Assembly: GCA_905479815.1 (NCBI GenBank)
Contig: CAJQOA010000007.1
Span: 1-35,028 of the forward strand
Direction of reading: 5' to 3'
Source of the DNA: an uncultured Psychroserpens sp.
GTDB taxonomy: Bacteria; Bacteroidota; Bacteroidia; Flavobacteriales; Flavobacteriaceae
Length of the DNA stretch: 35,028 nt
Below, piece after piece: positions 2,380-27,235 of the stretch. A model generated the notes under the pieces. It made no database searches and was not told the DNA's origin. It saw nothing but the letters and a program-made list of their open reading frames with translations. The position numbers were made by a program, and so were the translations under genes. The stretch's first letter is position 1. Each line of letters begins with the position of its first letter.

Positions 2380-2458
2380 TATATTTTTGTGTGAACTTAA
2401 AGTTACTGAAAATTAGTCAATTAAACCAACACAATAATCCGTTCAATAATTTGTAAAT

Positions 2459-3289
2459 TTGAAAGCACTAAAAACAGTACTATTGAATTCAAAAATTTGT
2501 GTCATCGGTTGTGGTTGGTTGGGATTACCATTAGCCAAAAAATTAATAGAACTCAACTACAGTGTTCATGGCTCAACGACTTCAAAAGAGAAATTATCAA
2601 TACTAGAACACGCAGAAATTCATCCGTTTTTAATTCAATTTTCTTCGGAAGGTGTAACCGGTAACCTAAAATCTTGTCTTAAAGATTGCCAAACGCTCAT
2701 TGTAAACATTCCTCCTGGTTTGCGTAAAAACCCTGAAAGCGATTATGTTAAACAAATGAAACATTTTATAGACGCTGTTGAAGATTCTTCTATAGAAAAT
2801 GTATTATTTATAGGTTCTACATCTGTATATGGTGATGATGAAGAATACCCTATAATTACAGAAGAGTCTCCTACCTCAAATGCTAAGATACCAAAGCAAC
2901 TATTAGAAGTTGAAGCGCTTTTCACATCAAACAAAAAATTCAAAACCACTATTTTACGATTTAGTGGTCTTTTTGCTGAAGACAGACATCCTGCAAAATT
3001 TCTTTCAGGAAAAACTAATCTAAAAAATGATAATGCTCCAGTAAATTTAATTCATAGAGATGATTGTATTTCTATTATCATTTCCGTAGTGCAACATAAT
3101 ATTTGGTCTACTATTATTAATGCTTCAACACCATCACATCCTACTAAAAAAGACTATTATAATTCAATTTGCGAGTCACTTCAATTACCACTTCCAGAAT
3201 TTAATACTACCGAAATTAGTAAAGGAAAAATCATTGACTCAACAAAGTTGGTACAACTTTTGAATTATGATTTTAAAGTAAAACTTTAA
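2459..3289 (+). CDS. NAD(P)-dependent epimerase/dehydratase family (SDR) protein
   Basis: An extended SDR protein of up to 276 residues, resembling the YeeZ-type sugar-nucleotide epimerase relatives. The dinucleotide loop is GCGWLGLP (residues 18-25), with ENVLFIGSTSVYGDDEEYP carrying the Ser and Tyr region and GLFAEDRHP downstream. The usual YxxxK is not clear, and many YeeZ relatives lack it, so catalysis is uncertain. There is no ATG near the front. The extreme start is TTG at 2459, but this TTG is the end of a possible -7 box, TAAATTTG (2454-2461). A TTG at 2483, giving MNSKICVIGCGW, fits the usual distance to the Rossmann loop better. The true 5' end is therefore probably about 24 bases downstream of the coordinate given. 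Confidence 0.75.
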   Translation: MKALKTVLLNSKICVIGCGWLGLPLAKKLIELNYSVHGSTTSKEKLSILEHAEIHPFLIQFSSEGVTGNLKSCLKDCQTLIVNIPPGLRKNPESDYVKQMKHFIDAVEDSSIENVLFIGSTSVYGDDEEYPIITEESPTSNAKIPKQLLEVEALFTSNKKFKTTILRFSGLFAEDRHPAKFLSGKTNLKNDNAPVNLIHRDDCISIIISVVQHNIWSTIINASTPSHPTKKDYYNSICESLQLPLPEFNTTEISKGKIIDSTKLVQLLNYDFKVKL

Positions 3290-3448
3290 CAATTAGCAGA
3301 CTTTTAAGAACTAATGCCAGATATTTTTTTAGTTTTGGCGCAATTAATTAATAAAAACAATGAAACATTCTTATTGCATTAGTATTCAAACAATACTATG
3401 ATTATTTGAATGTTCCATGTGACAAATAAAAAAAATTAATACGAACAC

Positions 3449-4159
3449 ATGAAAAAACTTATCCTTCTTTTAGCCGTTGTAACGACATTTAATGTCACTG
3501 CTCAAACCAAATCTGAACTTTTAAAACACTTTGAAGCATATCATAAAGAGATGAAAGGTCAAGGTGATGTCCAAGGTGTCATCAATGCCATGACGCATCT
3601 TAACGTGATACAGCCTAGCCAACAGCGATCAGACACACTTGCTTATATTTATGTTACAGAGGGTAGAAATCTTGAAGCTTTAAATACTATTGGTATCGAT
3701 TTAAATGCAACAGACTCTGATATTAATACAGAAGTTAAAGCCATTTCTCTAAAAGCGCTTAATCAACCCGAACGTGCCGTTGTTTTTTATGAAGAGTTAT
3801 TTAAAAGGAATGCCAACTCTTATGTTGCTTACGAGATTGCTGACTTAAAAACACAATTACAAGATTTTGCTAGTGCAAAGGCAAAAGTTGATTATGGTTT
3901 AACGAATGTAAAACCAGAAATGAAACGTTCATTTTACGAATCACAAAGACCTTACGAAGTGTCTCTTAAAGGTGCATTGACATATATGAAAGCATTGGTT
4001 GTTTTTAATATGAATCAAACCGATAATTTAGATCAAGCCATCACATTACTAGGTGAAGCTTTAGTTATGGATGCTAATTTTAATTTAGCAAAAATAAGTA
4101 AAGACGCATTAGAAGCAAGAAAGGCAAAAGGGACAACTACACCTGAAAAAAAGAATTAA
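3449..4159 (+). CDS. exported helical (TPR-like) protein of unknown function
   Basis: A 236-residue protein with a Sec signal peptide (about 1-18, ending in TAQ), so it is probably periplasmic. The mature part is alpha-helical, with repeated helix pairs reminiscent of tetratricopeptide repeats (for example the segment around QPERAVVFYEELFKRNANS and the C-terminal LDQAITLLGEALVMDANFN), but I cannot define regular 34-residue repeats. It ends in a Lys-rich tail. It stands alone: 159 bases without a gene lie upstream, and a strong terminator shared with the opposing peptidase gene follows. Function not recognised; protein-protein scaffolding is the usual role of such folds. Confidence 0.7.
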   Translation: MKKLILLLAVVTTFNVTAQTKSELLKHFEAYHKEMKGQGDVQGVINAMTHLNVIQPSQQRSDTLAYIYVTEGRNLEALNTIGIDLNATDSDINTEVKAISLKALNQPERAVVFYEELFKRNANSYVAYEIADLKTQLQDFASAKAKVDYGLTNVKPEMKRSFYESQRPYEVSLKGALTYMKALVVFNMNQTDNLDQAITLLGEALVMDANFNLAKISKDALEARKAKGTTTPEKKN

Positions 4160-13989: not shown

Positions 13990-14121
13990 GTTATTAAATT
14001 AGAAATCTATAGTCGCAATAAGTATTAAACCTTTCACTTTGTGTTTGGTATTATAATTGTACAATTTTAAAAAAAACAGGAGACCTTTTCAACTTTTGAC
14101 CATTAATAAGTAAAACAGTGT

Positions 14122-14664
14122 ATGAGTGATCAAGACATTTTAGTACTTTTTAAAAACGGTCAACGTGAGAAAGCATTTAAGAAACTCTACCATCTTTATC
14201 CAAGAATTGAGAAACTAGTACTCTCAAAAGGTGGCAGCAAAGATGATGCTAGTGATGTGTTTCAAGAAGCACTCATTATTTTAAATCGAAATCTAGAAAC
14301 TTCAAACTTTAAACTCACGGCTTCGTTTTATACGTATCTATATTCGGTATCACGTTTTGTGTGGTCTGATATTCAAAAAAGCCTTACCAAACAACAACTA
14401 CAAGATCTTAATACGCAAGAAGTTCAAGTGTTTCAAGAGGTCATCGAAGAAAAAAAATACCAACTTGCCGAACATGCTTTTCTAGAAATAGGGAAACGAT
14501 GTCAACAACTTTTACAACTGTTTTATCACCAAGCCATGTCGTTTAAAGACATTGCTAATGTGATGCAATTTAAATCTTCAAAAATTGCAAAAAACCAGAA
14601 GTATAAGTGCTTACAAAAAGCAAAAGACATCTATCAAACCAAATTAAAATCGGTTCAATCCTAA
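14122..14664 (+). CDS. ECF-type RNA polymerase sigma factor
   Basis: A 180-residue sigma-70 family protein with only regions 2 and 4. Region 2 covers about 15-95 and contains DDASDVFQEALIILNRN, matching the core-binding and -10 recognition helices. Region 4 (about 112-175) contains RCQQLLQLFYHQAMSFKDIANVMQFKS, a helix-turn-helix for -35 recognition. The gene is followed 11 bases later by a membrane protein whose N-terminus is built like an anti-sigma factor, so the pair probably forms a signal-responsive sigma switch. No consensus housekeeping promoter is evident upstream, which would fit autoregulation. Confidence 0.9.
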   Translation: MSDQDILVLFKNGQREKAFKKLYHLYPRIEKLVLSKGGSKDDASDVFQEALIILNRNLETSNFKLTASFYTYLYSVSRFVWSDIQKSLTKQQLQDLNTQEVQVFQEVIEEKKYQLAEHAFLEIGKRCQQLLQLFYHQAMSFKDIANVMQFKSSKIAKNQKYKCLQKAKDIYQTKLKSVQS

Positions 14665-14675
14665 AAAAGAAACGC

Positions 14676-16844
14676 ATGGAAACTTACACTCAATATATAG
14701 AACTTATAAATGATTACCTCAATAATATACTCTCAAAAGAAGCACAAGCAGATTTTGAATCAAAGCTTAAAAGCGACTCAGTATTTAATACCATCTACCA
14801 AGAACATCTAGTGTTTGTAAACGGATTAGAGCGCATTGAAATTAAAGGCGATATCCAAAACGCAAAACATTCATATCACACAGAAAAATGGTTAAAAATT
14901 TCAGGGATTTCTATTCTAGTTATTGGCGCATTAGTGATGTTATATACTTTGGTTTTTAATACCTCGGAAATGGAACTAACTCCAAATTCTGATGCTTTAA
15001 ATACCATAATCATAGATTCTACATCTAGTTCAAAAACAACTACTCTTTCAGATGTTGAACCTATAGTAGATTCTATAATTAACACCAAAACCACAAAAGG
15101 CATACTGGGTATTACAACTCCAATTTCCGAAGAAAAATTGATTGCGAAAGCAAATTATAATCCGTTTCAAAAAGCACATCAAGTCCTAAGAATCAACACT
15201 CAAAATGACACTATAATTAGATGTAAAGAAGGCAGTGTTTTAAGAATTTCAAAAGGGGCTTTTGTTAATCGTAAAACAGGAAAATCTATTGTTGGAAACG
15301 TCGATATTAAGGTGACTGAATATTATAAATTATCAGACATCTTAATCGCCAATCTTTCTACCGTTTCTAATGGTCAACAATTAGAGACTGGAGGTATGCT
15401 TTTTATCGAGGCAACACAAGGTGCAACAGATTTAAAATTAAAAGACGATTCTCCTATTGACATTTCATTTCCGACGAGAAACAAAAAAGAGGGTATGCAA
15501 TTATTCACAGGAGAATGGACAAATAAGAACATCAATTGGTCACTTCAAAACATAGAGGAATTAGAAGAAATAGACCTTTACGAAGAGCATATAGACGTCC
15601 CTTTTAATGTGGTTGAAGAAGCTCCAATATTTCCTGGATGTGAGACTGAAAACACCAATGACGCTAGGAAAAAATGTATGAAGGAGGCTATTTCTAGTTT
15701 TGTGAATAGAAAATTTAATATAGGTGTTGCTAATAACTTAGGACTTTCTGGACTACAACGTATTAATTGTTATTTCAAAATTGACAAGGATGGAAATGTC
15801 GTTTTTATTCAGTCTAGAGCACCACATCCTAGATTGAGTGAAGAAGCAGATCGTGTTATTGGTCTATTGCCCAAAATGATTCCTGGAAAACAACGAGGTA
15901 AAGCTGTTAATGTGCCTTATGCTTTACCAATTCGTTTTAAAATTCAAGGAGAATCATCTACAAATCAATCTTCAAGACGAGTGAGTATGGATACTGTATC
16001 AACTGTTACTAGTATTGCTTTTGATCAAGAGCCTGCAGTAAGCCCTGTAGAAATGGATACCACTTATAATGCTAATCGAGGTATGGTTGAGTTTATTAGA
16101 GAAGTGATGCACGATAAAGATTTTCCTGTAGATTCTTTATTTATAAGCCAATGGGAGCAGTACAAAAAACAAAAGCTGATTAGAGGTATAAGCATAGAAA
16201 CGAAACCAAATTATATAGAAAGAGCCATCGTTTTAAGAAAACCATTACTTGAAATGGAGGGTAGTAAATTTAAGATTATAGATGGTGATTCTATCACTCG
16301 AGGTGGACATATTATTAGAGTACCATGGGATGAAAGTAAAATACCAACAACGACTCAAGTTATGACTATTGCTCCAAAACAACGATTTTCTGCAGGTACA
16401 GATGCAGTTACTGCAGAAGAGTTTGAATCTCGATTAGGTGATGTCGCAGATACTAGTATTTCCTCTAGAGATGCAGGATATTATATTCTAAAAACCTCTA
16501 ATCTAGGTTGGATTAATTGTGATCGTTTTATCAATGGTAGAACGACTCGTATCAAATACAAACTCAAAATAAAAAATGCTGATGGCGCGAGTATTAGTAT
16601 GGTTTTTAAATCTATAAACGCTGTGTTACCGAGCTGGTACACCAATGGTGTTTATGATTTTCAAACTGTTGGAGCTAATGAAAAAGTCGTTTTGGTTGCG
16701 ATTAAGCGAAAAAACGGAAAGCTCTATTATGATATGGTGGAGACGAAGACGAAAGCTAATCCACAATTAGATTTTAAGTTTAAAGAGGTTACAATTGAGG
16801 AACTTAAAGAAGAATTGGAGGGATTAAATAGCAACTTTAATTAA
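14676..16844 (+). CDS. anti-sigma-like membrane protein with internal TonB C-terminal domain
   Basis: A 722-residue protein with an unusual layout. Residues 1-70 are cytoplasmic and helical (METYTQYIELINDYLNN, then a SKEAQADFESKLKSDS segment), like Bacteroidota anti-sigma factors. One membrane helix follows at about 74-94. The periplasmic part holds a beta domain common in Bacteroidota (about 185-267, with GAFVNRKTGKSIVGNVDIKV and LETGGMLFIEA). Next is a domain nearly identical in plan to flavobacterial TonB energy-transducer C-termini (about 308-423, with EEAPIFPGCE, LGLSGLQRINCYFKIDKDGN, SRAPHPRL and LLPKMIPGKQRGKAVNVPY). A C-terminal region containing LGWINCDRF ends the protein. I chose ATG 14676; the longer frame from 14607 would overlap the sigma gene. 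Probably controls the adjacent sigma factor; inferred from position and layout. Confidence 0.75.
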   Translation: METYTQYIELINDYLNNILSKEAQADFESKLKSDSVFNTIYQEHLVFVNGLERIEIKGDIQNAKHSYHTEKWLKISGISILVIGALVMLYTLVFNTSEMELTPNSDALNTIIIDSTSSSKTTTLSDVEPIVDSIINTKTTKGILGITTPISEEKLIAKANYNPFQKAHQVLRINTQNDTIIRCKEGSVLRISKGAFVNRKTGKSIVGNVDIKVTEYYKLSDILIANLSTVSNGQQLETGGMLFIEATQGATDLKLKDDSPIDISFPTRNKKEGMQLFTGEWTNKNINWSLQNIEELEEIDLYEEHIDVPFNVVEEAPIFPGCETENTNDARKKCMKEAISSFVNRKFNIGVANNLGLSGLQRINCYFKIDKDGNVVFIQSRAPHPRLSEEADRVIGLLPKMIPGKQRGKAVNVPYALPIRFKIQGESSTNQSSRRVSMDTVSTVTSIAFDQEPAVSPVEMDTTYNANRGMVEFIREVMHDKDFPVDSLFISQWEQYKKQKLIRGISIETKPNYIERAIVLRKPLLEMEGSKFKIIDGDSITRGGHIIRVPWDESKIPTTTQVMTIAPKQRFSAGTDAVTAEEFESRLGDVADTSISSRDAGYYILKTSNLGWINCDRFINGRTTRIKYKLKIKNADGASISMVFKSINAVLPSWYTNGVYDFQTVGANEKVVLVAIKRKNGKLYYDMVETKTKANPQLDFKFKEVTIEELKEELEGLNSNFN

Positions 16845-16905: not shown

Positions 16906-18066
16906 TTAGCCTCTAAACAAAAAGAAGTCATCCTTCATGTCTTCTATCTGTGCATCTTCATTGGTAATGATATAATCAATAGCTTTAGTCGTGAATTCAT
17001 CACCTTTTGAAGTTAAAGACACGATCTTATGATTTATTACAATCATATTATTTTTTAAAGCTAATTCTAAAACGGTTTTAGAACGTACTTTTTGCCAATT
17101 AATATGCTCATTAAGATGATTAACATGACGTTCGTTTTCTTCATCATGATTTTTTAAATGCAATAAAAAGGTGAGTAATGAGACTTCAATGCGTTGTTGC
17201 TTTTCTCTATAAAGCACTGCAATAACGCCTTTATTTGGCGCAAATAAATAGACTAATAAAAACAAAAGTCCAAGCACTGTTGATATTGATCCTGCAATTG
17301 AAGCATCTAATCCATGTGCCAGCCAATATCCTGAAATAGCGCTAAAAATTCCGAAGACAATAGAAAATATGAGCATTTTCTTTAAATCGGTGGTCAATAA
17401 ATAGGCAGTAGCTGCTGGAGCAATCATGAGAGCTACTACTAAAATAGCACCTACTGCGTCAAAAGCACCTACTGTTGTTATGGATGACACGGTCATTAAT
17501 CCGTAATGAATAATAACTGGTGAAAACCCTAATGAGGCTGCCAAACCTTTATCAAACGTACTTAGTTTTAATTCTTTAAAAAAGGCCAATAATAATACAA
17601 TCGTGATGATGAGAATACTGCCAATAACCCAAAGGGATTTTGGACCAACATCAACACCAGAAATTAATAAACGATCAAAAGGCGCTAAAGCTAATTCACC
17701 AACTAAAACGGCGTCAATATCCAAATGCACATCATTCGCTTTTTTAGCAATCATCAAAACACCAATACTAAATAAGACAGGAAACACTAACCCAATGGCA
17801 GTATCTTCTTTCACTAACCCTGTTTTTTGAATATACTCAACCAAAACCACCGTAATTACACCTGTTAAAGCTGCTAATAATATTAATAATGGTGAATTTA
17901 AATCTTGAGTGATAAAAAACCCAACAACGATTCCTGGTAATATAGAATGGCTAATAGCATCGCTTATCATGGCCATTTTCCGGAGTACTAAAAACGTACC
18001 TGGAATAGCACAAGCAATAGCTACCAAACTCGCAATAAGTTGTATTTCTATTTGTGCGTTACTCAT
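16906..18066 (-). CDS. metal ABC transporter permease with C-terminal winged-helix-like tail
   Basis: A 386-residue inner-membrane permease of the ABC-3 (ZnuB/MntB/TroC) family with about eight membrane helices (residues 1-285), including the family-typical LRKMAMISDAISHSILPGI near the N-terminus and GAILVVALMIAPAATAYLL. A cytoplasmic tail of about 100 residues (290-386), absent from ordinary ZnuB, looks like a winged helix: helices, then NNMIVINHKIVSLTSKGDEF, where LTxxG marks the wing as in DtxR-type repressors. It is the last gene of the metal operon. Its start overlaps the previous permease stop by eight bases, implying coupled translation. Confidence 0.9.
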   Translation of the reverse strand: MSNAQIEIQLIASLVAIACAIPGTFLVLRKMAMISDAISHSILPGIVVGFFITQDLNSPLLILLAALTGVITVVLVEYIQKTGLVKEDTAIGLVFPVLFSIGVLMIAKKANDVHLDIDAVLVGELALAPFDRLLISGVDVGPKSLWVIGSILIITIVLLLAFFKELKLSTFDKGLAASLGFSPVIIHYGLMTVSSITTVGAFDAVGAILVVALMIAPAATAYLLTTDLKKMLIFSIVFGIFSAISGYWLAHGLDASIAGSISTVLGLLFLLVYLFAPNKGVIAVLYREKQQRIEVSLLTFLLHLKNHDEENERHVNHLNEHINWQKVRSKTVLELALKNNMIVINHKIVSLTSKGDEFTTKAIDYIITNEDAQIEDMKDDFFLFRG

Positions 18067-19186
18067 CGTTTCTAGTTAATTGGTTATATAAATTTAAAGC
18101 CGATTTAAAACCCTCGTCAGTCAAACTCCAGGTGGATCCTTTTAAAGTCACGTAATCTTTCTCAACTAGCTTTTTAAGAGTCCCTTTGGTATAGCCTTGA
18201 AAACTATTCAAAATTTTAATTTCGTGCGGATGCGAAATATCATCATGCGTTTCTGCAATGTTATACATGAAGGCCAAAGTTTTGTGTAGTTCTAAATCAC
18301 GACGATTTTTTATAAATCGTATTTGTTTAAATAGTAAACCTCGACTTGGAGAAAATATAAACGATATTAATACAAAAACAGCTGCAACCAACACAATCAC
18401 AGGACCTGTAGACAAATTGTTTTGACTGGCACTAATTGCTGTTCCGAAAACTCCAGAAAATGCTCCAAAAATCGCAGCTAAAAACACCATGGTTGCCAAA
18501 CTGTTAGTCCATTGTCTTGCTGCAGCTGCAGGCGCTAGAAGCATAGCACTCATAAGTACGACACCTACGGTTTGTAATCCTAATACAATGGCTAAAACAA
18601 TGAAACTCGTAATTAATATGTCTATAGCTTTGGTATTAAAGCCAAGTGTTTTGGCGTAATCTTTATCGAAGAGTAAAATTTTAAATTCTTTCCAAAATAA
18701 GAGCAATACAAATAGGCAAATCCCGGTGACAATTGCCATCATCCAAACATCACTCTCTACAAGCGTTGCTGCTTGACCAAATAAATATTTATCTAATCCT
18801 GCTTGATTAGCATTAGGTTGCTTTTGTATAAATGTGAGTAAGAGCATTCCGAAACCAAAAAACAAAGACAAAATTAACCCAAGCGCAGTATCAGATTTGA
18901 GGTGTGTTTTTGTGACAATACCTCTAATCCAGAAGGTTCCAATCAACCCACTTACCAATGCACCCAACAATAATGTGTTACTATCTTTTGCACCAGTAAT
19001 CAAAAATGAAATAGCTATTCCTGGAAGTGCAGCATGCGAAATAGCATCTCCTAAAAGACTTTGTTTTCGAAGTACAGCAAAGCTCCCTAACATACCAGTT
19101 ACAGCACCAAGAATTGCAGTTCCTAATGTGATGGTTCGTAAGGTATAGTCTGTAAAAACTAAAGAAAAATAGTCTTGAATATCCAT
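18059..19186 (-). CDS. metal ABC transporter permease with C-terminal winged-helix-like tail
   Basis: A 375-residue ABC-3 family permease (membrane part about 1-285), with LRKQSLLGDAISHAALPGIA and a VVLMSAMLLAPAAAARQW segment typical of manganese/zinc/iron permeases. The C-terminal 85 residues form a predicted winged helix: THDDISHPHEIKILNSF, recognition-helix-like TKGTLKKLVEKDYVTL, and wing WSLTDEGFKSALN. The last string closely parallels LQLTEKGTKMALN in the operon's own DtxR-type repressor. The start codon overlaps the ATPase stop as TAATG. It presumably forms a heterodimer with the downstream permease. Confidence 0.9.
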   Translation of the reverse strand: MDIQDYFSLVFTDYTLRTITLGTAILGAVTGMLGSFAVLRKQSLLGDAISHAALPGIAISFLITGAKDSNTLLLGALVSGLIGTFWIRGIVTKTHLKSDTALGLILSLFFGFGMLLLTFIQKQPNANQAGLDKYLFGQAATLVESDVWMMAIVTGICLFVLLLFWKEFKILLFDKDYAKTLGFNTKAIDILITSFIVLAIVLGLQTVGVVLMSAMLLAPAAAARQWTNSLATMVFLAAIFGAFSGVFGTAISASQNNLSTGPVIVLVAAVFVLISFIFSPSRGLLFKQIRFIKNRRDLELHKTLAFMYNIAETHDDISHPHEIKILNSFQGYTKGTLKKLVEKDYVTLKGSTWSLTDEGFKSALNLYNQLTRNDE

Positions 19187-19923
19187 TATTCTTGTATACT
19201 CACTTTATAATTAATTCCGTAGGTTTTTGTTAAGTTGTCATCGTTAAATATATCCTTAACTGGACCTGTCGCTATTTTTTTGACATTTAAAAACGTTACC
19301 CAATCAAAATATTCGGGAACGGTTTGTAAATCATGATGAACAACGATTACTGTTTTTCCTGATTTTCGTAATTCTTTTAAAATATTAATGATTGCAATTT
19401 CTGTAGTGGCATCGACACCTTGAAACGGTTCATCCATAAAATAGATAGAAGCATCTTGCACTAAAGCACGTGCTAAAAATATACGTTGTTGTTGACCACC
19501 AGACAGTTGACTTATTTGTCTGCTTTTAAAAGGTAACATTCCTACTTTTTCAAGGGCTTCTAAAGCCGCTTTCTTTTGTTTTTGTCGCGGACGTTTAATC
19601 CAGCCTAAACTCCCATAAGTTCCCATCGTCACCACATCTAATGCTGTTGTTGGGAAATCCCAATCCACACTTCCTTTTTGTGGTACGTAGGCTACTAATG
19701 AACGCTGTTTATCGTAAGATTTACCATAGATAGACACACTGCCTGCAATAGGTTTTAATATTCCTAAAACAGATTTAATTAGTGTAGATTTTCCTGCACC
19801 ATTTGGCCCAACTATAGCCATCAATACGCCTTCTGGAATTTCTAAGTCAATATCCCAAAGTACCGGCTTGTAATTATAAGCTACAGTTAAATCATCTATT
19901 TTTACTGCGATTTTATTACTCAT
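19186..19923 (-). CDS. metal ABC transporter ATP-binding protein
   Basis: A 245-residue ABC ATPase of the manganese/zinc/iron uptake group, powering the two permeases. Walker A is GPNGAGKST (39-47), the Q-loop region is [15 protein letters not shown], the signature is LSGGQQQR, Walker B is [10 protein letters not shown], and the switch histidine is in VVHHDLQ. The AYVPQ and DWDFP strings are characteristic of metal-type ATPases such as MntB/TroB. It overlaps both neighbours by one base (TAATG at each junction), so the operon is tightly coupled. Confidence 0.95.
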
Positions 19924-20834
19924 TATTTTAAAGCATTTACAATTGTGTTGACGTTATACTCAAACATTCCAACATAAGTCCCTTCTTCAGTTCCTGCATT
20001 TCCTAAAGCATCAGAGTACAATGTGCCTCCAATTTCAACATCGTGCCCTTTAGAATTTACTGCAGCTTGCAAAGCTTCAATTGTTCTTTTAGGAACTGAA
20101 CTCTCTACAAAAACAGCTTTGATGTTTTTTTCGATAATAAAGGCAGATAGTTTCTGTACATCTTGAACACCTGCTTCTGTAGCAGTTGACAATCCTTGTA
20201 AGCCTACAACTTCAAAGTCATATGCTTTTCCGAAGTAATTAAATGCATCATGCGCTGTTACTAATATTCTTTTTTCCTTCGGAAGCGTCTCGATAGTCGC
20301 CTTTATTTTAGACTGTAATTCGTTCAGTTTAGCTAAATATTTTGTTTCGTTAGCTTTAAAATTATCTGCATTTTCAGGATTTTTTTCTGAAAGTACTTGT
20401 GTCACCTTTTGAGCAAATTGCTTGAAGTAATTAATATCAAACCATACATGAGGATCATAATTGGATGCAAAATAGTCGGATCCAATCAATGTACTTTTAT
20501 CTAGTTCTTCACCTAAAGCAATTGGTGTTTTCGTAGCACTTCCCATCTTTTCAAACACCTCAACGAGCTTCCCTTCCAAATGCAAACCGTTATAAAAAAT
20601 CACATTGGCATCAACTAATTTAGTGACGTCCCCTTCACTAGCTTTATAAAGGTGTGGATCTACTCCGCTGCCCATCAATCCTTGAAGATTCACATAATCT
20701 CCTCCAATGTTTTTTACCAAATCGGTAATCATTGACGTTGTGGTAACGACGTTTAATTTTCCGTTAGTATTAGTTTCGTTTTTACAACTGAAAATAGTTA
20801 CTAAAACGAAAACTATAAGCATGTTCTTTTTCAT
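19923..20834 (-). CDS. metal ABC transporter substrate-binding lipoprotein (TroA/ZnuA-like)
   Basis: A 303-residue cluster A-I solute-binding protein. The lipobox ends at C17 (TIFSC), so it is a periplasmic lipoprotein. The four ligand positions are visible: H61 (VDPHLYKAS), H129 (DPHVWFD), H195 ([10 protein letters not shown]) and D275 (LYSDALG). This His-His-His-Asp set resembles TroA of Treponema. MntC/PsaA have Glu at the third position, and zinc-specific ZnuA proteins also carry a His-rich loop, which is absent here. The metal is therefore manganese, zinc or iron, not decided by sequence. The start lies five bases after the outer-membrane gene stop. Confidence 0.93.
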
Positions 20835-20839
20835 AATAT

Positions 20840-21697
20840 TTATTTTGTAGGTATTCTAAAACTCGCACCTAGACCTAATAAAAGGTCTTGTCCTTTGGTA
20901 ATACTTGTTCCGAAGTATGCATCTAATTGTAAATCATTTGAGACTAAATACGTAAATCCTGCATCCCAGTAATGATTAGCAGTACTATCTTCTGGCAAAT
21001 CGCCATAAAGCTCAGCGTACATACCAAACCTATCTGTAAAACTATAACCGTAAGCTACTGTATAAATAGCTGCAGCTTCTGGAGAATCATTCCCCCATTG
21101 TCCACCAAGGTTATAGGCTATACTAGATTTCTCACTTAACGTATGAGAAAAAGCAAATCTAAAATCAACTGCAGTAGTTTCTGGACGGTAATCTTGTCCT
21201 GCAGAAAATATAGGAAACACATGACCTATTAAGGCAATCTCTGGCATCCCATTTTTTTCTTCGGAAATATCAATTTTCACACCTAATAATAATGGTGACA
21301 ATCCACTTGTGACATTATCTAATCTATTTCCATTAATCGTTGTTACACCTTCTACAAAATCCCAACCTATTCGTAATTCTATATTATCAAGAATACCGTA
21401 ACGCAAAAGTGTTGTATTGAAAGTATACGCTTCAGATGTGATAGTGTTATCTTTAAAAGACTCGTACAAACCTCCTGTTTCTATTTGAAAAACACCTTTT
21501 CCTACTGTTGATGATGCTTCTGTTGCATCTGGTCTATCTGTTATTAACGCATCGTAAACAATTTCGATACATTCAATAATGACGCCTTCAGCAATTTCTT
21601 CTTTGGGTATATCTAGTTTTTCAGGTATATCTTCCTGACCGAAAATTAATCCAGAATATAACAATGCTATAAGTAGGAATATATTTTTAATTCTCAT
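20840..21697 (-). CDS. outer-membrane beta-barrel protein (Phenol_MetA_deg-like) in the metal operon
   Basis: A protein of about 285 residues with a signal peptide (MRIKNIFLLIALLYSGLIFG then Q) and a barrel of alternating strands. The ALITDRPDATEASSTVGKG opening and the following GVFQIETGGLYE, RYGILDNIELRIGWDFV and TAVDFRFAFSHTL strands resemble the Phenol_MetA_deg/transporter-like barrel family, whose substrates are mostly unproven. It is cotranscribed between the metal-responsive repressor and the binding protein, suggesting an outer-membrane step for metal entry or siderophore-free uptake; inferred. The start overlaps the repressor stop by 11 bases if ATG 21697 is used; ATG 21703 or 21727 are alternatives. 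Confidence 0.8.
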   Translation of the reverse strand: MRIKNIFLLIALLYSGLIFGQEDIPEKLDIPKEEIAEGVIIECIEIVYDALITDRPDATEASSTVGKGVFQIETGGLYESFKDNTITSEAYTFNTTLLRYGILDNIELRIGWDFVEGVTTINGNRLDNVTSGLSPLLLGVKIDISEEKNGMPEIALIGHVFPIFSAGQDYRPETTAVDFRFAFSHTLSEKSSIAYNLGGQWGNDSPEAAAIYTVAYGYSFTDRFGMYAELYGDLPEDSTANHYWDAGFTYLVSNDLQLDAYFGTSITKGQDLLLGLGASFRIPTK

Positions 21698-22343
21698 CGA
21701 CATAAATAATTTTAGTGAAATCTTCATTCAAAACAATGCTATTTGATCCAATAGAAATTTGAGTCATTTTGTTACTAATAAACTGTTTTGAAACGGTTAC
21801 TATATTTCTATATTTAATTTCGTTTTGTGCACAAAAATCAAAGAATTCTTTATCATCACTCAACAATCTAGAAATGATATATGTTTTCCCTTCTGTTGCT
21901 TCAGCTAGTGAAATAGACGTATCTTCAGTAGTGATTTCTCCGTCTGCATTTGGTATAGGGTCACCATGAGGATCAAACTTTGGGTGACCTAAATAAGCAC
22001 TTATTTTATCGGCTAACAAATCTGAAGTTTGATGCTCTAGAAGTTCTGCTTCGCGGTGAATATCATGCAATGACATATCAAACATCTTAAACAGAAATGA
22101 TTCCCAGAGGCGATGTTTTCTCACCACATTAAGTGCCATTTTAGTACCCTTTTCTGTGAGTTGAAGTTTTTGATACTTTTCGTAATTAACCAAATCTTTC
22201 ACTGCTAATTTCTTAGCCATATCTGTTGCCGCTGCATTAGATATCCCAAGCTTTTTGGCAATATTGCCTGGCTTAGTATCTTTAATATCGTGATTATCAT
22301 TATTGTAAATTGCTTTTACAAAGTTCTCAATCGCTACAGACAT
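21687..22343 (-). CDS. DtxR/MntR-family metal-dependent repressor
   Basis: A 218-residue three-domain repressor: winged helix (1-72), dimerisation/metal domain (about 73-140) and a C-terminal FeoA/SH3-like domain (about 145-215). Metal residues align with DtxR: H77, E81 and H96 (site 1), then E100, E103 and H104. The DtxR Cys102 position is Glu, as in manganese-sensing MntR, but the N-terminal MntR Asp is Asn-7 here. Sensing of Mn or Fe is likely; which one is open. First gene of a six-gene uptake operon, so it is probably autoregulated and represses uptake when metal is sufficient. A palindrome at 22365-22380 lies just after its -7 box. Confidence 0.92.
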   Translation of the reverse strand: MSVAIENFVKAIYNNDNHDIKDTKPGNIAKKLGISNAAATDMAKKLAVKDLVNYEKYQKLQLTEKGTKMALNVVRKHRLWESFLFKMFDMSLHDIHREAELLEHQTSDLLADKISAYLGHPKFDPHGDPIPNADGEITTEDTSISLAEATEGKTYIISRLLSDDKEFFDFCAQNEIKYRNIVTVSKQFISNKMTQISIGSNSIVLNEDFTKIIYVDEN

Positions 22344-22364
22344 TTTTAATTGCTTTAATTAATT

Positions 22365-22380
22365 TTTAAGTATGCTTAAA
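22365..22380. promoter_or_regulatory. candidate operator of the metal regulator
   Basis: Near-palindrome with TTTAAG and CTTAAA arms around TATG, seven bases downstream of the -7 box, covering the expected transcription start of the repressor operon. Thirteen of its 16 positions recur at 27478-27493 in the feoA promoter. The form (AT-rich, 6-base arms) suits a DtxR/MntR-type dimer. Confidence 0.6.
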
Positions 22381-22387
22381 TTTTTTA

Positions 22388-22418
22388 CAAATGTAACTAA
22401 AATTCGACATTACATCAA
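22388..22418 (-). promoter_or_regulatory. promoter of the metal-transport operon
   Basis: Minus strand: TTG (22418-22416), 20 bases, TACATTTG (22395-22388), a full -7 match. The start site should fall near 22381, inside or next to the operator-like palindrome. Confidence 0.55.
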
Positions 22419-22487
22419 TAAGATTTTGAAATTAGGACTACTTTCTTATAATTGTTAACTTAACACATCCTTAAAATTCATAAATAT

Positions 22488-24515
22488 ATGTTTCGATATA
22501 CTTTCCTTCTATTAATTCTATTGAGTTCTCAAGTGGTTATTTCACAATCTGAAAAACGACCACTTCAACCTTTAGATATTTTTGAACTTGAATGGGCTTC
22601 AGATCCACAAATTTCTCCCGATGGTTCTCAAATAGTGTACAAAAGAAATGGTTTTGATATCATGAAAGACAACTCTAGAGGTAATCTATGGATTATTAAT
22701 AGCGATGGCTCTTCTCACAGAAAATTAACATCTAGAGAGGTCAATGAGTCACAAGCCAAATGGTCACCATCAGGAGACCGTATTGCATTTTCAAGTGCTA
22801 CAGATGAAGGTTCTGAGTTATATATGTATTGGACTAAAACTGGACAAATTGCCAAGCTATCTCAGCTTACAAAATCACCAGGAAATCTCACGTGGTCACC
22901 TGATGGAAACCATTTAGCATTCACGATGTTTATCTCTCAAAAACCTCCAGTAGTTGCTAAAATGCCAACAAAACCAAAAGGTGCAGATTGGGCAAAACCA
23001 GCCCGTATTACAGATCGTTTAAAGCATGAAAGAGATGGCAGTGGTTATATGGAACCTGGATTTACTCATGTTTTTACAATTCCTTCGGAAGGTGGATCTG
23101 CACGTCAAATTACTTCTGATGATTTTAACCATAACAGTAGTTTATCATTTTCTCCTGATGGACAAGACATTTATTTCTCAGCCAACAGAGTGGACGATTG
23201 GGAATATAGATTTAGAAATAGTGAAATTTACAAAGTGAATATTGATTCTAAAAAAATTATAGCACTTACCTCACAAGATGGACCAGACTATAGCGCACAA
23301 GCCTCTCCAGATGGAAAAACTATAGCATTTTTAGGGTTTTTAGATAAAGTTCAAGCCCACCAAAATACAGTTTTACATCTAATGAATACTGATGGTAGCA
23401 ATCGAAAAATCATCTCTTCAAATCTAGATCAAAGCGTTTCTAATATTTCATGGGATACTGAAGGTAAAGGCTTATATTTTACATATGATGACAAAGGAAA
23501 TTCTAAAGTTGCTCATATCACAACCTCTGGCGAAATAACGAAACTAGCAGATAATTTAGGAGGTACAACATTAGGAAGGCCTTATGCTTCTGGTTCGTAT
23601 TCTGTTTCAACTAATGGGACGGTTGTTTTTACGCAAACTCGACCAGAATATCCAGCAGATTTAGCGGTTATTCAGAACAAAAAAGCACCTCAACTCATCA
23701 CGAGTTTAAACTCAGATGTTTTAGATCATCGCCAATTAGGTGAAACAGAAGAAGTCTGGTACAAATCCTCTTTTGATGGACGGGATATTCAAGGATGGAT
23801 TGTTAAACCACCATTTTACGATAGTTCAAAAGCATATCCGTTATTAGTTGAAAATCATGGCGGACCAATCTTAAATTATGGAGACCGTTTTACTGCGGAA
23901 ATCCAACTCTACGCAGCAGATGGTTATGTGGTATTTTACCCAAACCCAAGAGGAAGCACCAGTTATGGTGAAGAATTTGGAAACCTATTATACAATAATT
24001 ATCCAGGTCAAGATTATAATGATGTCATGGATGGTGTAGATCATTTAGTAGAAAATGGCATCGCAGATAACACTAAGTTATTTGTCACTGGCGGAAGCGC
24101 TGGAGGTATTATGACCGCATGGATTATTGGAAAAAATAAGCGTTTTAAAGCTGCTGTAGTTGCAAAACCAGTTATGAATTGGATTAGTAAAACTTTAGTT
24201 GCAGATAATTATTATGGTTATGCCAATTCTAGATATCCAGGGCAACCTTGGGAAAACTTTGAAACCTATTGGAAGTTCTCACCCATCTCCTTAGTTGGTA
24301 ATATTGAAACGCCAACAATGGTAATGGTTGGTCTTAATGATTTGAGAACGCCTCCTAGTGAAGCCAAACAATTGTATCATGCTTTAAAACTTCGAAAAAT
24401 TGAAACTGTTTTAGTAGAAATTCCTGATGCATCTCATGGTATTGCACGTAAACCAAGTAATTTAATAAGTAAGGTAGCGCATACTTTGGCATGGTTTAGG
24501 GCGTATAATAAGTAA
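22488..24515 (+). CDS. S9 family peptidase (prolyl oligopeptidase/acyl-aminoacyl peptidase type)
   Basis: A 675-residue exported serine peptidase with a signal peptide (about 1-19, ending VVISQ). A seven-bladed propeller of WD40-like PD40 repeats occupies about 30-400 (repeated SPDGxxIxF strings such as SPDGQDIYFSANR and SPDGKTIAFLG). The alpha/beta hydrolase domain follows (about 410-675), with NHGGPILNYGDRF, the nucleophile elbow GGSAGG (S537), the Asp near VMVGLNDLRTPPSEA, and His in IPDASHGIARKP. Such enzymes trim oligopeptides in the periplasm. It is divergent from the metal operon and nine bases ahead of the next gene. Confidence 0.93.
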   Translation: MFRYTFLLLILLSSQVVISQSEKRPLQPLDIFELEWASDPQISPDGSQIVYKRNGFDIMKDNSRGNLWIINSDGSSHRKLTSREVNESQAKWSPSGDRIAFSSATDEGSELYMYWTKTGQIAKLSQLTKSPGNLTWSPDGNHLAFTMFISQKPPVVAKMPTKPKGADWAKPARITDRLKHERDGSGYMEPGFTHVFTIPSEGGSARQITSDDFNHNSSLSFSPDGQDIYFSANRVDDWEYRFRNSEIYKVNIDSKKIIALTSQDGPDYSAQASPDGKTIAFLGFLDKVQAHQNTVLHLMNTDGSNRKIISSNLDQSVSNISWDTEGKGLYFTYDDKGNSKVAHITTSGEITKLADNLGGTTLGRPYASGSYSVSTNGTVVFTQTRPEYPADLAVIQNKKAPQLITSLNSDVLDHRQLGETEEVWYKSSFDGRDIQGWIVKPPFYDSSKAYPLLVENHGGPILNYGDRFTAEIQLYAADGYVVFYPNPRGSTSYGEEFGNLLYNNYPGQDYNDVMDGVDHLVENGIADNTKLFVTGGSAGGIMTAWIIGKNKRFKAAVVAKPVMNWISKTLVADNYYGYANSRYPGQPWENFETYWKFSPISLVGNIETPTMVMVGLNDLRTPPSEAKQLYHALKLRKIETVLVEIPDASHGIARKPSNLISKVAHTLAWFRAYNK

Positions 24516-24524
24516 AATCGATAC

Positions 24525-24968
24525 ATGAAAATTAAACTTTTAATAATTTGTTATTTAGCTTTTGGGTATTGTTTTGCTCAAAAAACAATAAAACCGCTTG
24601 ACTTTACTTACGATTCTATACCTATTAATACCAACATTAAAATTCACGATGCAGTGTCATTTAAAAATGTGGTCATTACTTTTGAAAAGGTACTTATAGA
24701 TTCTCGTTGTCCAAAAGATGTAAATTGTGTAAGGGCAGGTGAAGCTAAAATCTTATTATCAATAATTGAAGATGGGGTCTTTCTTAAAAACAAAGAAGTC
24801 ACTATTGACGCTGAGGGTTATATTTTTGCAAGCACAAATATGTGTTATAGAATGAAAAACTACGACATATACATAACCGAATTGTATCCATACCCAAAAT
24901 CTAAAGAGAAAACTAAAGAAGCGTCTTATAATGCTAATTTTTTCGTGATGCGAAATTATCGTCAATGA
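24525..24968 (+). CDS. exported hypothetical protein with DSRCPKDVNCVRAG motif
   Basis: A 147-residue exported protein (signal peptide about 1-18, ending FAQ). The mature domain is beta-rich and contains DSRCPKDVNCVRAGEAKI, a paired-Cys motif seen in many flavobacterial secreted hypotheticals, where the two Cys probably form a disulfide. Function unknown. It follows the S9 peptidase by nine bases and is likely cotranscribed. Its stop codon overlaps by seven bases the end of a convergent small Cys-rich membrane protein gene. Confidence 0.7.
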   Translation: MKIKLLIICYLAFGYCFAQKTIKPLDFTYDSIPINTNIKIHDAVSFKNVVITFEKVLIDSRCPKDVNCVRAGEAKILLSIIEDGVFLKNKEVTIDAEGYIFASTNMCYRMKNYDIYITELYPYPKSKEKTKEASYNANFFVMRNYRQ

Positions 24969-25105
24969 CACCCACAATCATCTTGACCGCAAGCTTTAGA
25001 TCCAGATGTTTTTTTCTTAGGAAGTACGCCAAATTTATTCAATAAAAACCACATCGCTATTGCTAGCGCTATAAAAACTAATATGTTTTGTACTATGGTA
25101 TTCAT
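24962..25105 (-). CDS. FeoB-associated Cys-rich membrane protein
   Basis: A 47-residue protein encoded right after feoB. One membrane helix spans about 5-22 (VQNILVFIALAIAMWFLL), followed by a basic linker (PKKKTSGSK) and a Cys/Asp tail with C39, C44, C46 and His-47, the hallmark of the small FeoB-associated family (PF12669). It probably helps FeoB-mediated ferrous iron transfer; the exact role is not established. It starts 30 bases after the feoB stop. Its stop overlaps the convergent gene ending at 24968. Confidence 0.85.
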   Translation of the reverse strand: MNTIVQNILVFIALAIAMWFLLNKFGVLPKKKTSGSKACGQDDCGCH

Positions 25106-25135
25106 AATTTGTTTGTCGTTAAAACAGTTTAAATC

Positions 25136-27235
25136 TTACTTTAAAAATTGATAAGCAATCAAAGCTACAACATAAGCAAATGCAGTCATAATCACAAGTT
25201 GTAACATTGGCCATTTCCAAGTATTAGTTTCTCGCTTCACAATTGCTAATGTACTCATACATTGCATAGCAAAAGCATAGAATAATAGTAAAGAAATCCC
25301 TGATGCTAGGGTAAATAGTTTACCATCTGTTGTTCTATTTGTGTCTTTAGCCATTCTATTTGTGATGGTATCTACGTCATCATTTTCTACACTATATATC
25401 GTTGCTAATGTTCCTACAAAGACTTCTCGAGCTGCAAATGAGCTTACAATTGCGATTCCTATTTTCCAATCATATCCTAATGGTCTAATGGCAGGTTCTA
25501 TAGCTTGTCCAGCAATACCAATAAAAGAATGTTCTAGTTTATGAGATGATATTTTTTGTTGTAATTCTTCCGAAGATAAATTTTCCGAAGCATACTCAAC
25601 AGTGACAATTTCTTCTGCATTATTGAAACTATCTCCTGGTCCATAAGATGCTAAAAACCACAATACAATCGATATTGCTAAAATGATTTTACCTGCTCCA
25701 AATACAAATGACTTTGTCTTCTCTAAAACTGTTAGTGCTACATTTTTAAATAAAGGCAATTTGTAATTTGGCATTTCTACCACAAAAAAGGTTTTGCTCT
25801 TCATTTTTAGAATCTTATTTAAGATCCAGGCAGAAACAATTGCTGTACCAAAACCAATAAGATAAAGTAACATAAGTGTTAATGGTTGATATCCTAATCC
25901 TAAAAAACGACCTTCGGGAATCACTAATTCTATGATGATTAAATATACTGGCAAACGTGCTGAACAGGTTGTAAATGGTGTCACTAGAATCGTTATCAAA
26001 CGTTCTTTCCAACTTTCAATGTTTCTAGTTGCCATAATTGCTGGAATAGCACATGCAGTTCCTGATATTAATGGTACCACACTTTTACCGCTCAAACCAA
26101 AACGCCTCATAATACGATCCATCAAAAAGACAACACGACTCATATAACCACTCTCTTCTAGGATGGCGATGAACAAAAACAGAAATGCTATTTGTGGAAT
26201 AAATATCACGATACCACCTAGTCCAGGAATAATACCTTCGGTAATTAAATTAGTAAAGACACCTTCTGGCAAAATGCTTTGAGTCCACTCACTTAACCAG
26301 GCAAATGCTCCATCAATAAGCTCCATAGGCACTTGAGCCCACTCATATATTGCTTGAAATATCGTTAATAAGATGACAAAAAAGATGAGATACCCCCAAA
26401 CCTTATGAGTTAAAACTCTATCTAGTTTTATTCTAAGGTCTTTCGCTGTTTTAAGATCAATTGTCTGACCTTGTTTAAGTGTATTATTAATAAATTGATA
26501 GCGTTTTATCGTTTCTTTTTGTTGTAAGCGCTTAAGATCGGCTTTACCTTTAGTTTTAAAACTATTGATAGCATCAATTTCATTTCTATCAACTTTTCCG
26601 AAGTTAACATCCTGTGTAATAACCAACCACAATTTATATAATAACTGATTTGGAAATGCTTTTCTTAGCTTATCAAAATACTCTGTGTCAATTTCCGAAG
26701 CACTTAAACAAGGTGTGCTTGATAACTCTTTATAATTTGTAATGAGCTCTTTGAGTTGATCTATACCTTTATTTTTTCTAGTACTTATAAGGGCAATTTT
26801 AGTTTGCAGTTCTTGTTCTAAATAAGGAATATCTAACTGAATGCCCTTATAGGCCATCCTATCTGACATATTGATAACCAAAATTGTAGGAATCTCTAAA
26901 TCTTTGATCTGAGTATATAAAAGTAAGTTTCGTTTTAAATTTTCAACATCACTTACTACGACTGCAACATCTGGGAAATCTTTATCATTTTTATTGAGGA
27001 GTAACTCAATCACCACATTTTCATCAAGAGAAGACGCGTTTAAACTATAGGTTCCTGGTAAATCAATAATATGAGCTTTAACTCCTCTTGGAAGTTTACA
27101 AATTCCTTCTTTTTTCTCAACCGTAATTCCTGGATAGTTACCAACTTTTTGATTTAAGCCTGTAAGTGCATTAAAAACAGACGTTTTTCCTGTATTTGGA
27201 TTTCCAATAAGTGCAACATTGATTTGTTTAGGCAT
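25136..27235 (-). CDS. feoB: ferrous iron transporter FeoB
   Basis: A 699-residue inner-membrane Fe2+ transporter. The N-terminal G domain has G1 GNPNTGKTS (11-19), G3 DLPGTYSL, and G4 NMSD. Helical GDI-like residues follow (about 165-270), then the membrane domain with two Gate motifs: GYMSRVVFLMDRIMRRFGLSG (a stretch of conserved residues) with SGTACAIPAIMATR, and later SSFAAREVFVGTLATIYSVE. Length is standard. It overlaps feoA by eight bases and is followed by the small Cys-rich membrane protein, forming a complete feo operon. Confidence 0.97.
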   Translation of the reverse strand: MPKQINVALIGNPNTGKTSVFNALTGLNQKVGNYPGITVEKKEGICKLPRGVKAHIIDLPGTYSLNASSLDENVVIELLLNKNDKDFPDVAVVVSDVENLKRNLLLYTQIKDLEIPTILVINMSDRMAYKGIQLDIPYLEQELQTKIALISTRKNKGIDQLKELITNYKELSSTPCLSASEIDTEYFDKLRKAFPNQLLYKLWLVITQDVNFGKVDRNEIDAINSFKTKGKADLKRLQQKETIKRYQFINNTLKQGQTIDLKTAKDLRIKLDRVLTHKVWGYLIFFVILLTIFQAIYEWAQVPMELIDGAFAWLSEWTQSILPEGVFTNLITEGIIPGLGGIVIFIPQIAFLFLFIAILEESGYMSRVVFLMDRIMRRFGLSGKSVVPLISGTACAIPAIMATRNIESWKERLITILVTPFTTCSARLPVYLIIIELVIPEGRFLGLGYQPLTLMLLYLIGFGTAIVSAWILNKILKMKSKTFFVVEMPNYKLPLFKNVALTVLEKTKSFVFGAGKIILAISIVLWFLASYGPGDSFNNAEEIVTVEYASENLSSEELQQKISSHKLEHSFIGIAGQAIEPAIRPLGYDWKIGIAIVSSFAAREVFVGTLATIYSVENDDVDTITNRMAKDTNRTTDGKLFTLASGISLLLFYAFAMQCMSTLAIVKRETNTWKWPMLQLVIMTAFAYVVALIAYQFLK

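Follow-up and report, generated by a model that had tools for sequence, protein, structure and literature searches.

A pair of adjacent genes, encoding a sigma factor and a membrane protein that appears to be its anti-sigma factor and carries a TonB C-terminal domain (TonB_C) in its periplasmic part, was found in a contig of an uncultured Psychroserpens sp. of the Flavobacteriaceae (GenBank assembly GCA_905479815.1, contig CAJQOA010000007.1; the whole stretch of 35,028 nucleotides analyzed is called the window here). The sigma gene occupies positions 14122-14664 of the forward strand (180 amino acids), and the partner gene lies 11 bases downstream on the same strand (14676-16844, 722 amino acids). 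We propose that the two form an extracytoplasmic function (ECF) sigma/membrane-bound anti-sigma pair in which TonB_C, as part of the sensor, binds TonB boxes or similar peptides, and in which binding or loss of the ligand frees the sigma factor; the chances that this proposal is right seem to us about even. In known TonB-linked surface signalling, a dedicated receptor touches the anti-sigma factor, and Bacteroidota have very many TonB-linked receptors. An anti-sigma factor equipped with the receptor-touching domain of TonB could let one sensor read many receptors.

The sigma factor was assigned to the ECF type by TIGR02937 (residues 18-166; E 3.2e-12, 46.4 bits against a cut-off of 42.9) and matched the Pfam family Sigma70_r2 (28.5 against a cut-off of 24), while Pfam sigma region 4 gave no match at E up to 1. 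It is 65-97% identical to 26 other aligned sigma factors. The longest open reading frame of the partner gene begins at a GTG at 14607, inside the sigma gene; this start was rejected in favor of the ATG at 14676, because METY, MDTY or MENY is where the alignment of the 14 full-length members begins. An earlier note, made from the sequence of the window alone, had described an ECF sigma factor with an anti-sigma-like partner, the latter having a short helical N-terminus, one membrane helix and a large periplasmic part, with a TonB-C domain in the middle of that part and about 300 further residues containing an LGWINCDRF motif. The two sigma-family matches and the fold of the N-terminal model bear out the pair, the model and hydropathy the general layout, and the PF03544 search and predicted fold the TonB-C domain, after which 297 residues follow residue 425, with the motif at residues 610-618. 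The note had also let its idea depend on an anti-sigma fold in the N-terminus and on conservation of the pair; the fold was found by modelling and Foldseek, and the pair is conserved in one and the same set of 22 genomes out of 299.

Residues 1-73 of the partner (14676-14894) are predicted to form an anti-sigma domain of the class I type with three helices. Modelled alone with AlphaFold2, they reached a predicted local distance difference test (pLDDT) score of 90.7, with helices at residues 4-15, 21-33 and 35-72. When 350,542 PDB chains were searched by Foldseek, the top six matches were MucA, RsiW, RsiW, MucA, an unrelated protein and RslA, and the five anti-sigma matches among them (6in7, 5wuq with two chains, 8z6g and 3hug) come from structures solved with a sigma factor or its domain. 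The three-helix bundle and following helix of the class I anti-sigma domain (ASDI) are recognizable in the model, with matches that are weak, and we infer that residues 1-73 may bind the sigma factor. A match to Sigma_reg_N in one of 32 sequences is also weak (E 0.06).

As evidence for an anti-sigma factor, the genomic context is stronger than the sequence searches. Among 299 Flavobacteriaceae genomes, 22 were matched by the sigma profile at E 1e-30 or better, and the same 22 by the N-terminal profile at E 7.8e-28 or better, the next match being at 5.2e-11; the genes for the sigma factor and the anti-sigma domain are adjacent in all 22. Members of the family are contained in both profiles, and the informative part of this result is therefore the other 277 genomes, none of which has a strong match to the domain without the sigma factor. 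The same adjacency was seen in 38 of 38 mapped loci, which had been found through the sigma and anti-sigma genes themselves. Seven of the weaker matches to the anti-sigma domain were also fetched, and in all seven another ECF sigma gene immediately precedes the matching gene. At loci L189-L195, the Flavobacteriaceae were seen to have a second ECF sigma system, with a related anti-sigma domain and, after it, TPR repeats in the three members scanned. Across the order, the sigma profile matched 6 of 395 genomes, including that of the window. Moreover, the two genes were found to decay together: in Psychroserpens burtonensis (L039 5447-8154) there is one in-frame stop in each of them, and in genome G166 the sigma gene no longer has an intact frame and the anti-sigma reading frame, beside frames that look like a transposase, stops short of TonB_C. 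We counted this joint decay in favor of the sigma/anti-sigma pairing.

TonB_C (residues 306-425; 15591-15950) was detected by PF03544 at residues 366-423 with 26.1 bits, against a curated cut-off of 24.6, and a TonB/TolA fold was modelled at residues 314-425. In a VIA search the first 22 rows listed were all C-terminal domains of TonB, TonB homologues or TolA, the best of them over these residues being the TonB of 6i97, bound to the receptor FoxA (Z 8.5, root-mean-square deviation 2.4, 88 residues). The same genome also encodes a TonB-type protein (C25; TonB_C at 1.2e-8) to which residues 290-426 show 64% identity. We also compared anti-sigma TonB_C domains with those of TonB1, the two groups, here and in the tree, being our own assignment by length and motif. 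Among 20 TonB1 domains, 71 columns reach a conservation of 90% or more. For 56 of these columns the TonB1 residue recurs in half or more of 29 anti-sigma domains, and for 38 in 80% or more. The Y-S-L-P-I of the last strand is retained in 72-97% of the anti-sigma domains; in TonB of E. coli, it is with this strand that TonB boxes pair. By these counts, the TonB_C of the anti-sigma factor is a close copy of the TonB1 domain. In a TonB_C tree, which has few columns and is poorly resolved, 14 anti-sigma rows, from the genus and from Arcticiflavibacter, group together (99/92). A chance match to TonB_C was considered and rejected, since the modelled fold supports the assignment and the domain is present in 28 of 38 loci and, among the 14 full-length members, conserved between variable linkers. 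The LGWINCDRF motif was likewise rejected as a part of TonB_C, because it occurs without a TonB_C match in lipoprotein-like genes and an OmpA-family protein.

The rest of the 722-residue protein is modular. The whole-protein AlphaFold2 model, built from a 32-row alignment (A4), has a mean pLDDT of 73 and a predicted template modelling score of 0.31, so that single domains can be read from it and the arrangement of the domains cannot. A single transmembrane helix lies at about residues 71-98 (14886-14969), where hydropathy has its only peak above 1.6 and the model has a helix at residues 35-94. It is followed by a beta domain that carries the motif LETGGM (residues 167-291; 15174-15548), for which every one of the 32 rows of A4 could be aligned (motif LET-x-GM) and which was seen in 35 of 38 mapped loci, and, beyond TonB_C, by an extra segment in the window's genus and near relatives (residues 459-560; 16050-16355), present in 16 of the 26 anti-sigma rows of A4 and absent from the other 10. 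A C-terminal beta domain with the LGWINCDRF motif (residues 575-722; 16398-16841) ends the protein. Neither beta domain belongs to a Pfam family. A possible likeness of the LETGGM domain to ZU5 was not borne out by Pfam, which gave no such match, and the domain was scarcely probed by the fold search with the whole protein; for the C-terminal domain, the fold search gave beta-sandwich folds with weak scores (Z about 4-4.6). A match to Binary_toxB_3 at 0.044, below the cut-off, was taken as a chance beta-sandwich match. Residues 97-164 and 426-457 are predicted to be disordered by the model, and residues 310-425 are well predicted. Among the 14 full-length members, that of the window included, the folded parts have a mean identity of 61-66% and the linkers 19-32%; TonB_C is at 65% (45-91% pairwise) and the anti-sigma domain at 61%.

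No receptor gene adjoins the pair in the window, where the flanking genes encode a DnaJ/TerB-domain protein upstream and, on the other strand downstream, an ABC-3 permease, and no FecR domain was found in the 722-residue protein by Pfam at E up to 1. The absence of both had already been noticed from the sequence alone and holds for the window. A TonB-dependent receptor gene with barrel, plug and CarboxypepD_reg_2 domains does adjoin the pair in two species of one other genus (L067 729-3008 and L068 673-2925), being convergent with the TonB_C-bearing anti-sigma gene and 11-12 bases from its end; the neighbours of the remaining loci were judged by eye only. We take this adjacency as a lead, not as functional evidence.

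Comparison of upstream regions revealed a conserved element of 36 bases, GGAGACCTTTT-N6-TTGACCATTAA-NNANTAAA, at 14079-14114 of the forward strand, in which 27 bases are fixed. It is present with at most four mismatches in 32 of 33 upstream regions, the region without it being that of L127, and perfect copies of its 22-base core occur in 15 of 57 genomes, including that of the window, at one site each. The element normally lies 5-9 bases from the start codon of the sigma gene, and 42 bases from it in L010 and L011; because of the latter distance it is not a ribosome site. It is probably the promoter of the sigma gene's own operon and a candidate for autoregulation. It bears no resemblance to the flavobacterial promoter motif of the ECF type in PMC9723704, whose -10 region contains a CGT box.

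Taken together, the proposed mechanism would run as follows. The cytoplasmic three-helix domain would keep the sigma factor inactive, one helix would span the inner membrane, and the periplasmic part of about 620 residues would serve as a modular sensor, in which TonB_C sits between the LETGGM and LGWINCDRF beta domains. TonB_C would bind a short peptide strand, as TonB does; the likeliest ligands are TonB boxes of outer-membrane receptors or similar peptides from the N-termini of these receptors. Binding or loss of this ligand might alter the anti-sigma factor or trigger its cleavage, and the freed sigma factor would then use the conserved upstream element to transcribe its own operon. Sensing through TonB-box binding is plausible. 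In a bolder form, the anti-sigma factor would be a TonB mimic: through its TonB1-derived domain it would compete for free TonB boxes with TonB1 itself and so report the numbers of loaded, idle or misassembled receptors in the outer membrane, and its sensor end would be swapped between lineages with no change of the sigma factor, anti-sigma domain or upstream element; we offer this form tentatively and think it rather unlikely. If true, it would amount to receptor-general surface signalling without a dedicated receptor, STN or FecR domain.

A number of observations weigh against the proposal. For the anti-sigma domain, the Foldseek E-values of residues 1-73 are weak (2.7-5.8), the score of the VIA match to RsiW, Z 6.3 across 67 residues, is moderate by the standard of helical bundles, and the N-terminus matched nothing significantly in Pfam, zf-HC2 appearing at E 0.06 and 0.29 in two of eight members; sequence searches of the PDB with the N-terminus or with the whole family found nothing significant, with one match at 0.91. 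In genome G270 the anti-sigma gene is frameshifted, whereas the sigma gene next to it is intact. A search for a regulon in the 57 genomes found no site beyond the pair's own, apart from two sites with three mismatches in other genomes; a reversed-pattern control gave five matches, and the two sites are thus at chance level. For TonB_C, a Foldseek search with the whole model returned nothing at E 0.001 or better, the TonB of 6i97 coming first at 2.4e-3, and the tree does not unite all 29 anti-sigma TonB_C rows, for which six changes are needed, at least two of them forced by well-supported branches. Nor is TonB_C confined to TonB, since two other proteins of the same genome carry it: a BlaR1-like M56 protein with two TonB_C, encoded after a penicillinase-repressor-type gene (L089 2058-4185), and a 166-residue protein with a signal-like start. 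The window gene is therefore not the only one to place TonB_C on a signalling protein. Finally, TonB_C is unnecessary for the basic circuit, because it is absent from 10 of 38 loci; the idea of TonB_C as an invariant sensor is ruled out by these loci, and the reading of the earlier note, in which the TonB-C fold might be the sensor, is thus supported in part. Signal-like starts and matches to our own TonB_C profile outside a TonB context were also observed at L087 (2396-4507) and L090 (2861-4195). Of these proteins, Pfam confirmed the one of 166 residues and gave no match for the one of 703 residues.

It is the sigma factor and the anti-sigma domain that are constant, and the sensor end that is exchanged between lineages. 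Among the 22 pairs of the family, 16 have TonB_C and six (L122-L127) do not, five of the six having other outer parts and one being broken: a variant LETGGM part with LGWINIDK is found in L122, L125 and L126, a short other domain in L124 and a lipocalin/NlpE-like domain in L127, and L123 is the broken one. A variant LETGGM part followed by a TonB_C part is present in L069 and L076, and three distant pairs of another family have the anti-sigma and LETGGM domains and no TonB_C match. Two loci, L127 (3837-4844) and L145 from the window's own genus (2456-3457), have the lipocalin/NlpE-like domain as a fusion to the anti-sigma stalk. In L011, L012, L013, L017, L038 and L078 the domain is encoded beside the pair by a gene of its own, which has a signal-like start (L011 3654-4079 and L078 1859-2287, for instance), and a six-sequence BLASTP comparison aligned the L127 domain with the six separate genes at 4e-40 to 6e-22; they are also profile matches, and their lipocalin/NlpE label rests on Pfam matches below the cut-off. 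A deletion between neighbours could have made such fusions.

The main rival explanation draws on this exchange. The pair would be genuine, and its TonB_C would have lost TonB-box binding and be a spacer or the binding site of another periplasmic partner, such as the lipocalin/NlpE-like protein, so that the system would report the general state of the envelope or of lipoproteins. The dispensability of TonB_C, the fused and adjacent lipocalin-like domains, and the existence of LETGGM-TonB_C-LGW proteins without a window-type sigma factor in L080 and, in another family, L178 all fit such a role. Against it, no lipocalin-like match was found in the window's own genome, the adjacency may be an inherited position, because five genomes of the genus keep the lipocalin-like gene at the same locus where no pair was seen, and TonB_C is nearer to TonB1 than a spacer would need to be. 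We regard this explanation as a real possibility, while leaning against it.

The outer module has further contexts of its own. LETGGM and LGW-type domains occur together in lipoprotein-like genes and one OmpA-family protein (L080-L086 and L177-L180), and in two of these loci TonB_C stands between them (5.6e-27 with our own profile in L080; 3.9e-15 with Pfam in L178). At L180 (772-3981), three consecutive genes encode an ECF sigma factor, a protein with an OMP_b-brl_2 barrel at its C-terminus and an LETGGM/LGW lipoprotein-like protein, and at L084 an ECF sigma gene lies nearby on the other strand. From these contexts, the module seems to be older than its use in the pair and to have been tied repeatedly to ECF systems. 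Co-occurrence of the two domains was observed at L177 (3822-5525), L178 (3539-5011) and L179 (3549-4733). A profile of residues 430-722 matched 22 of the 299 Flavobacteriaceae genomes and also lipoprotein-like genes without a window-type sigma factor, and across the phylum the C-terminal profile matched 6 of 395 genomes, including that of the window.

Far less probable is that the 722-residue protein is mainly a variant of energy-transducing TonB working with ExbBD, the sigma factor being merely co-transcribed. It has TonB_C and a single N-terminal membrane helix, as TonB does, but about 70 residues with an anti-sigma fold precede that helix, TonB_C is not at the C-terminus as it is in energy-transducing TonB, and pairs without TonB_C retain the sigma factor and the anti-sigma domain.

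Near full-length matches to the anti-sigma gene were found in 14 of 57 genomes, that of the window included, namely 13 of 23 in the genus and one in another genus; one of the 14 (G017) carries a stop, and besides the window the gene is intact and full-length in 11 other genomes of the genus and in the one of another genus. Arcticiflavibacter luteus SM1212 is an example of a culturable relative with the pair. Decay of the pair into a functionless remnant, which would be in line with the 10 of 23 genus genomes that have no full-length match (one of them having a short version) and with the broken copies in P. burtonensis and G166, is highly improbable in view of these intact genes, the 61-66% mean identity of the domains between variable linkers and the near-invariant upstream element.

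As to the surroundings of the pair, metal-related genes were observed beside it at 16906-27235 of the window, including those for the ABC-3 permease and FeoB (Pfam) and others that we take to encode a second permease, a binding-protein-like protein and a DtxR-like protein. Permease genes occupy the same locus in relatives both with and without the pair.

The literature searched gave no description of TonB_C in an anti-sigma factor, with the limit that the ECF reclassification paper and the first paper on the Dma proteins may mention it, and the string GWINCDRF was not found there. According to PMC7406223, class I anti-sigma factors are neighbours of only 6% of Bacteroidetes ECFs. The pair described here would give this phylum, with its few such neighbours, one more kind of anti-sigma factor, and the exchangeable outer modules of the pair would be natural sensor swaps. 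With the class I factors RsiW, MucA and RslA, the window protein shares the predicted three-helix N-terminal fold, an adjacent ECF sigma gene and a single membrane helix; unlike them, it has a large modular periplasmic part (TonB_C and two unnamed beta domains) and no significant sequence match. FecI/FecR systems are similar in having an ECF sigma factor, a membrane regulator and a TonB theme, and a receptor gene adjoins the pair in two relatives. However, the window has neither a FecR domain nor an adjacent receptor, the sigma factor scores 26.3 bits with the Bacteroidetes model TIGR02985, far under its cut-off of 126.4, and the TonB part lies inside the anti-sigma factor.

Closer parallels are found elsewhere. 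In the PUMA3 (Vre) system of Pseudomonas aeruginosa, as described in PMC2729926, VreA is a separate periplasmic protein with an STN domain followed by a TolA/TonB-like domain, and a TolA/TonB C-terminal fold thus takes part in ECF surface signalling without an outer-membrane receptor of its own; in the window, by contrast, the fold is part of the anti-sigma factor, where no STN domain was detected by Pfam. The Dma anti-sigma factors of Bacteroides consist of an anti-sigma domain, a helix, a disordered tether and a beta-barrel, according to PMC13088901. They and the window protein are alike Bacteroidota proteins with an anti-sigma domain, one membrane helix, a tether, an elaborate outer part and an adjacent ECF sigma gene, and the gene order at L180 is Dma-like, whereas Dma proteins end in an outer-membrane beta-barrel and the window protein has TonB_C and beta domains, with no barrel family in Pfam and no barrel in its model. 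The BlaR1-like M56 protein of the window's own genome, which resembles BlaI/BlaR1 systems, also places TonB_C on a regulatory membrane protein, but differs in its peptidase M56, two TonB_C, penicillinase-repressor-type neighbour and lack of a sigma factor. The nearest precedents of the window pair are VreA of Pseudomonas, the Dma proteins of Bacteroides and the BlaR1-like M56 proteins with TonB_C.

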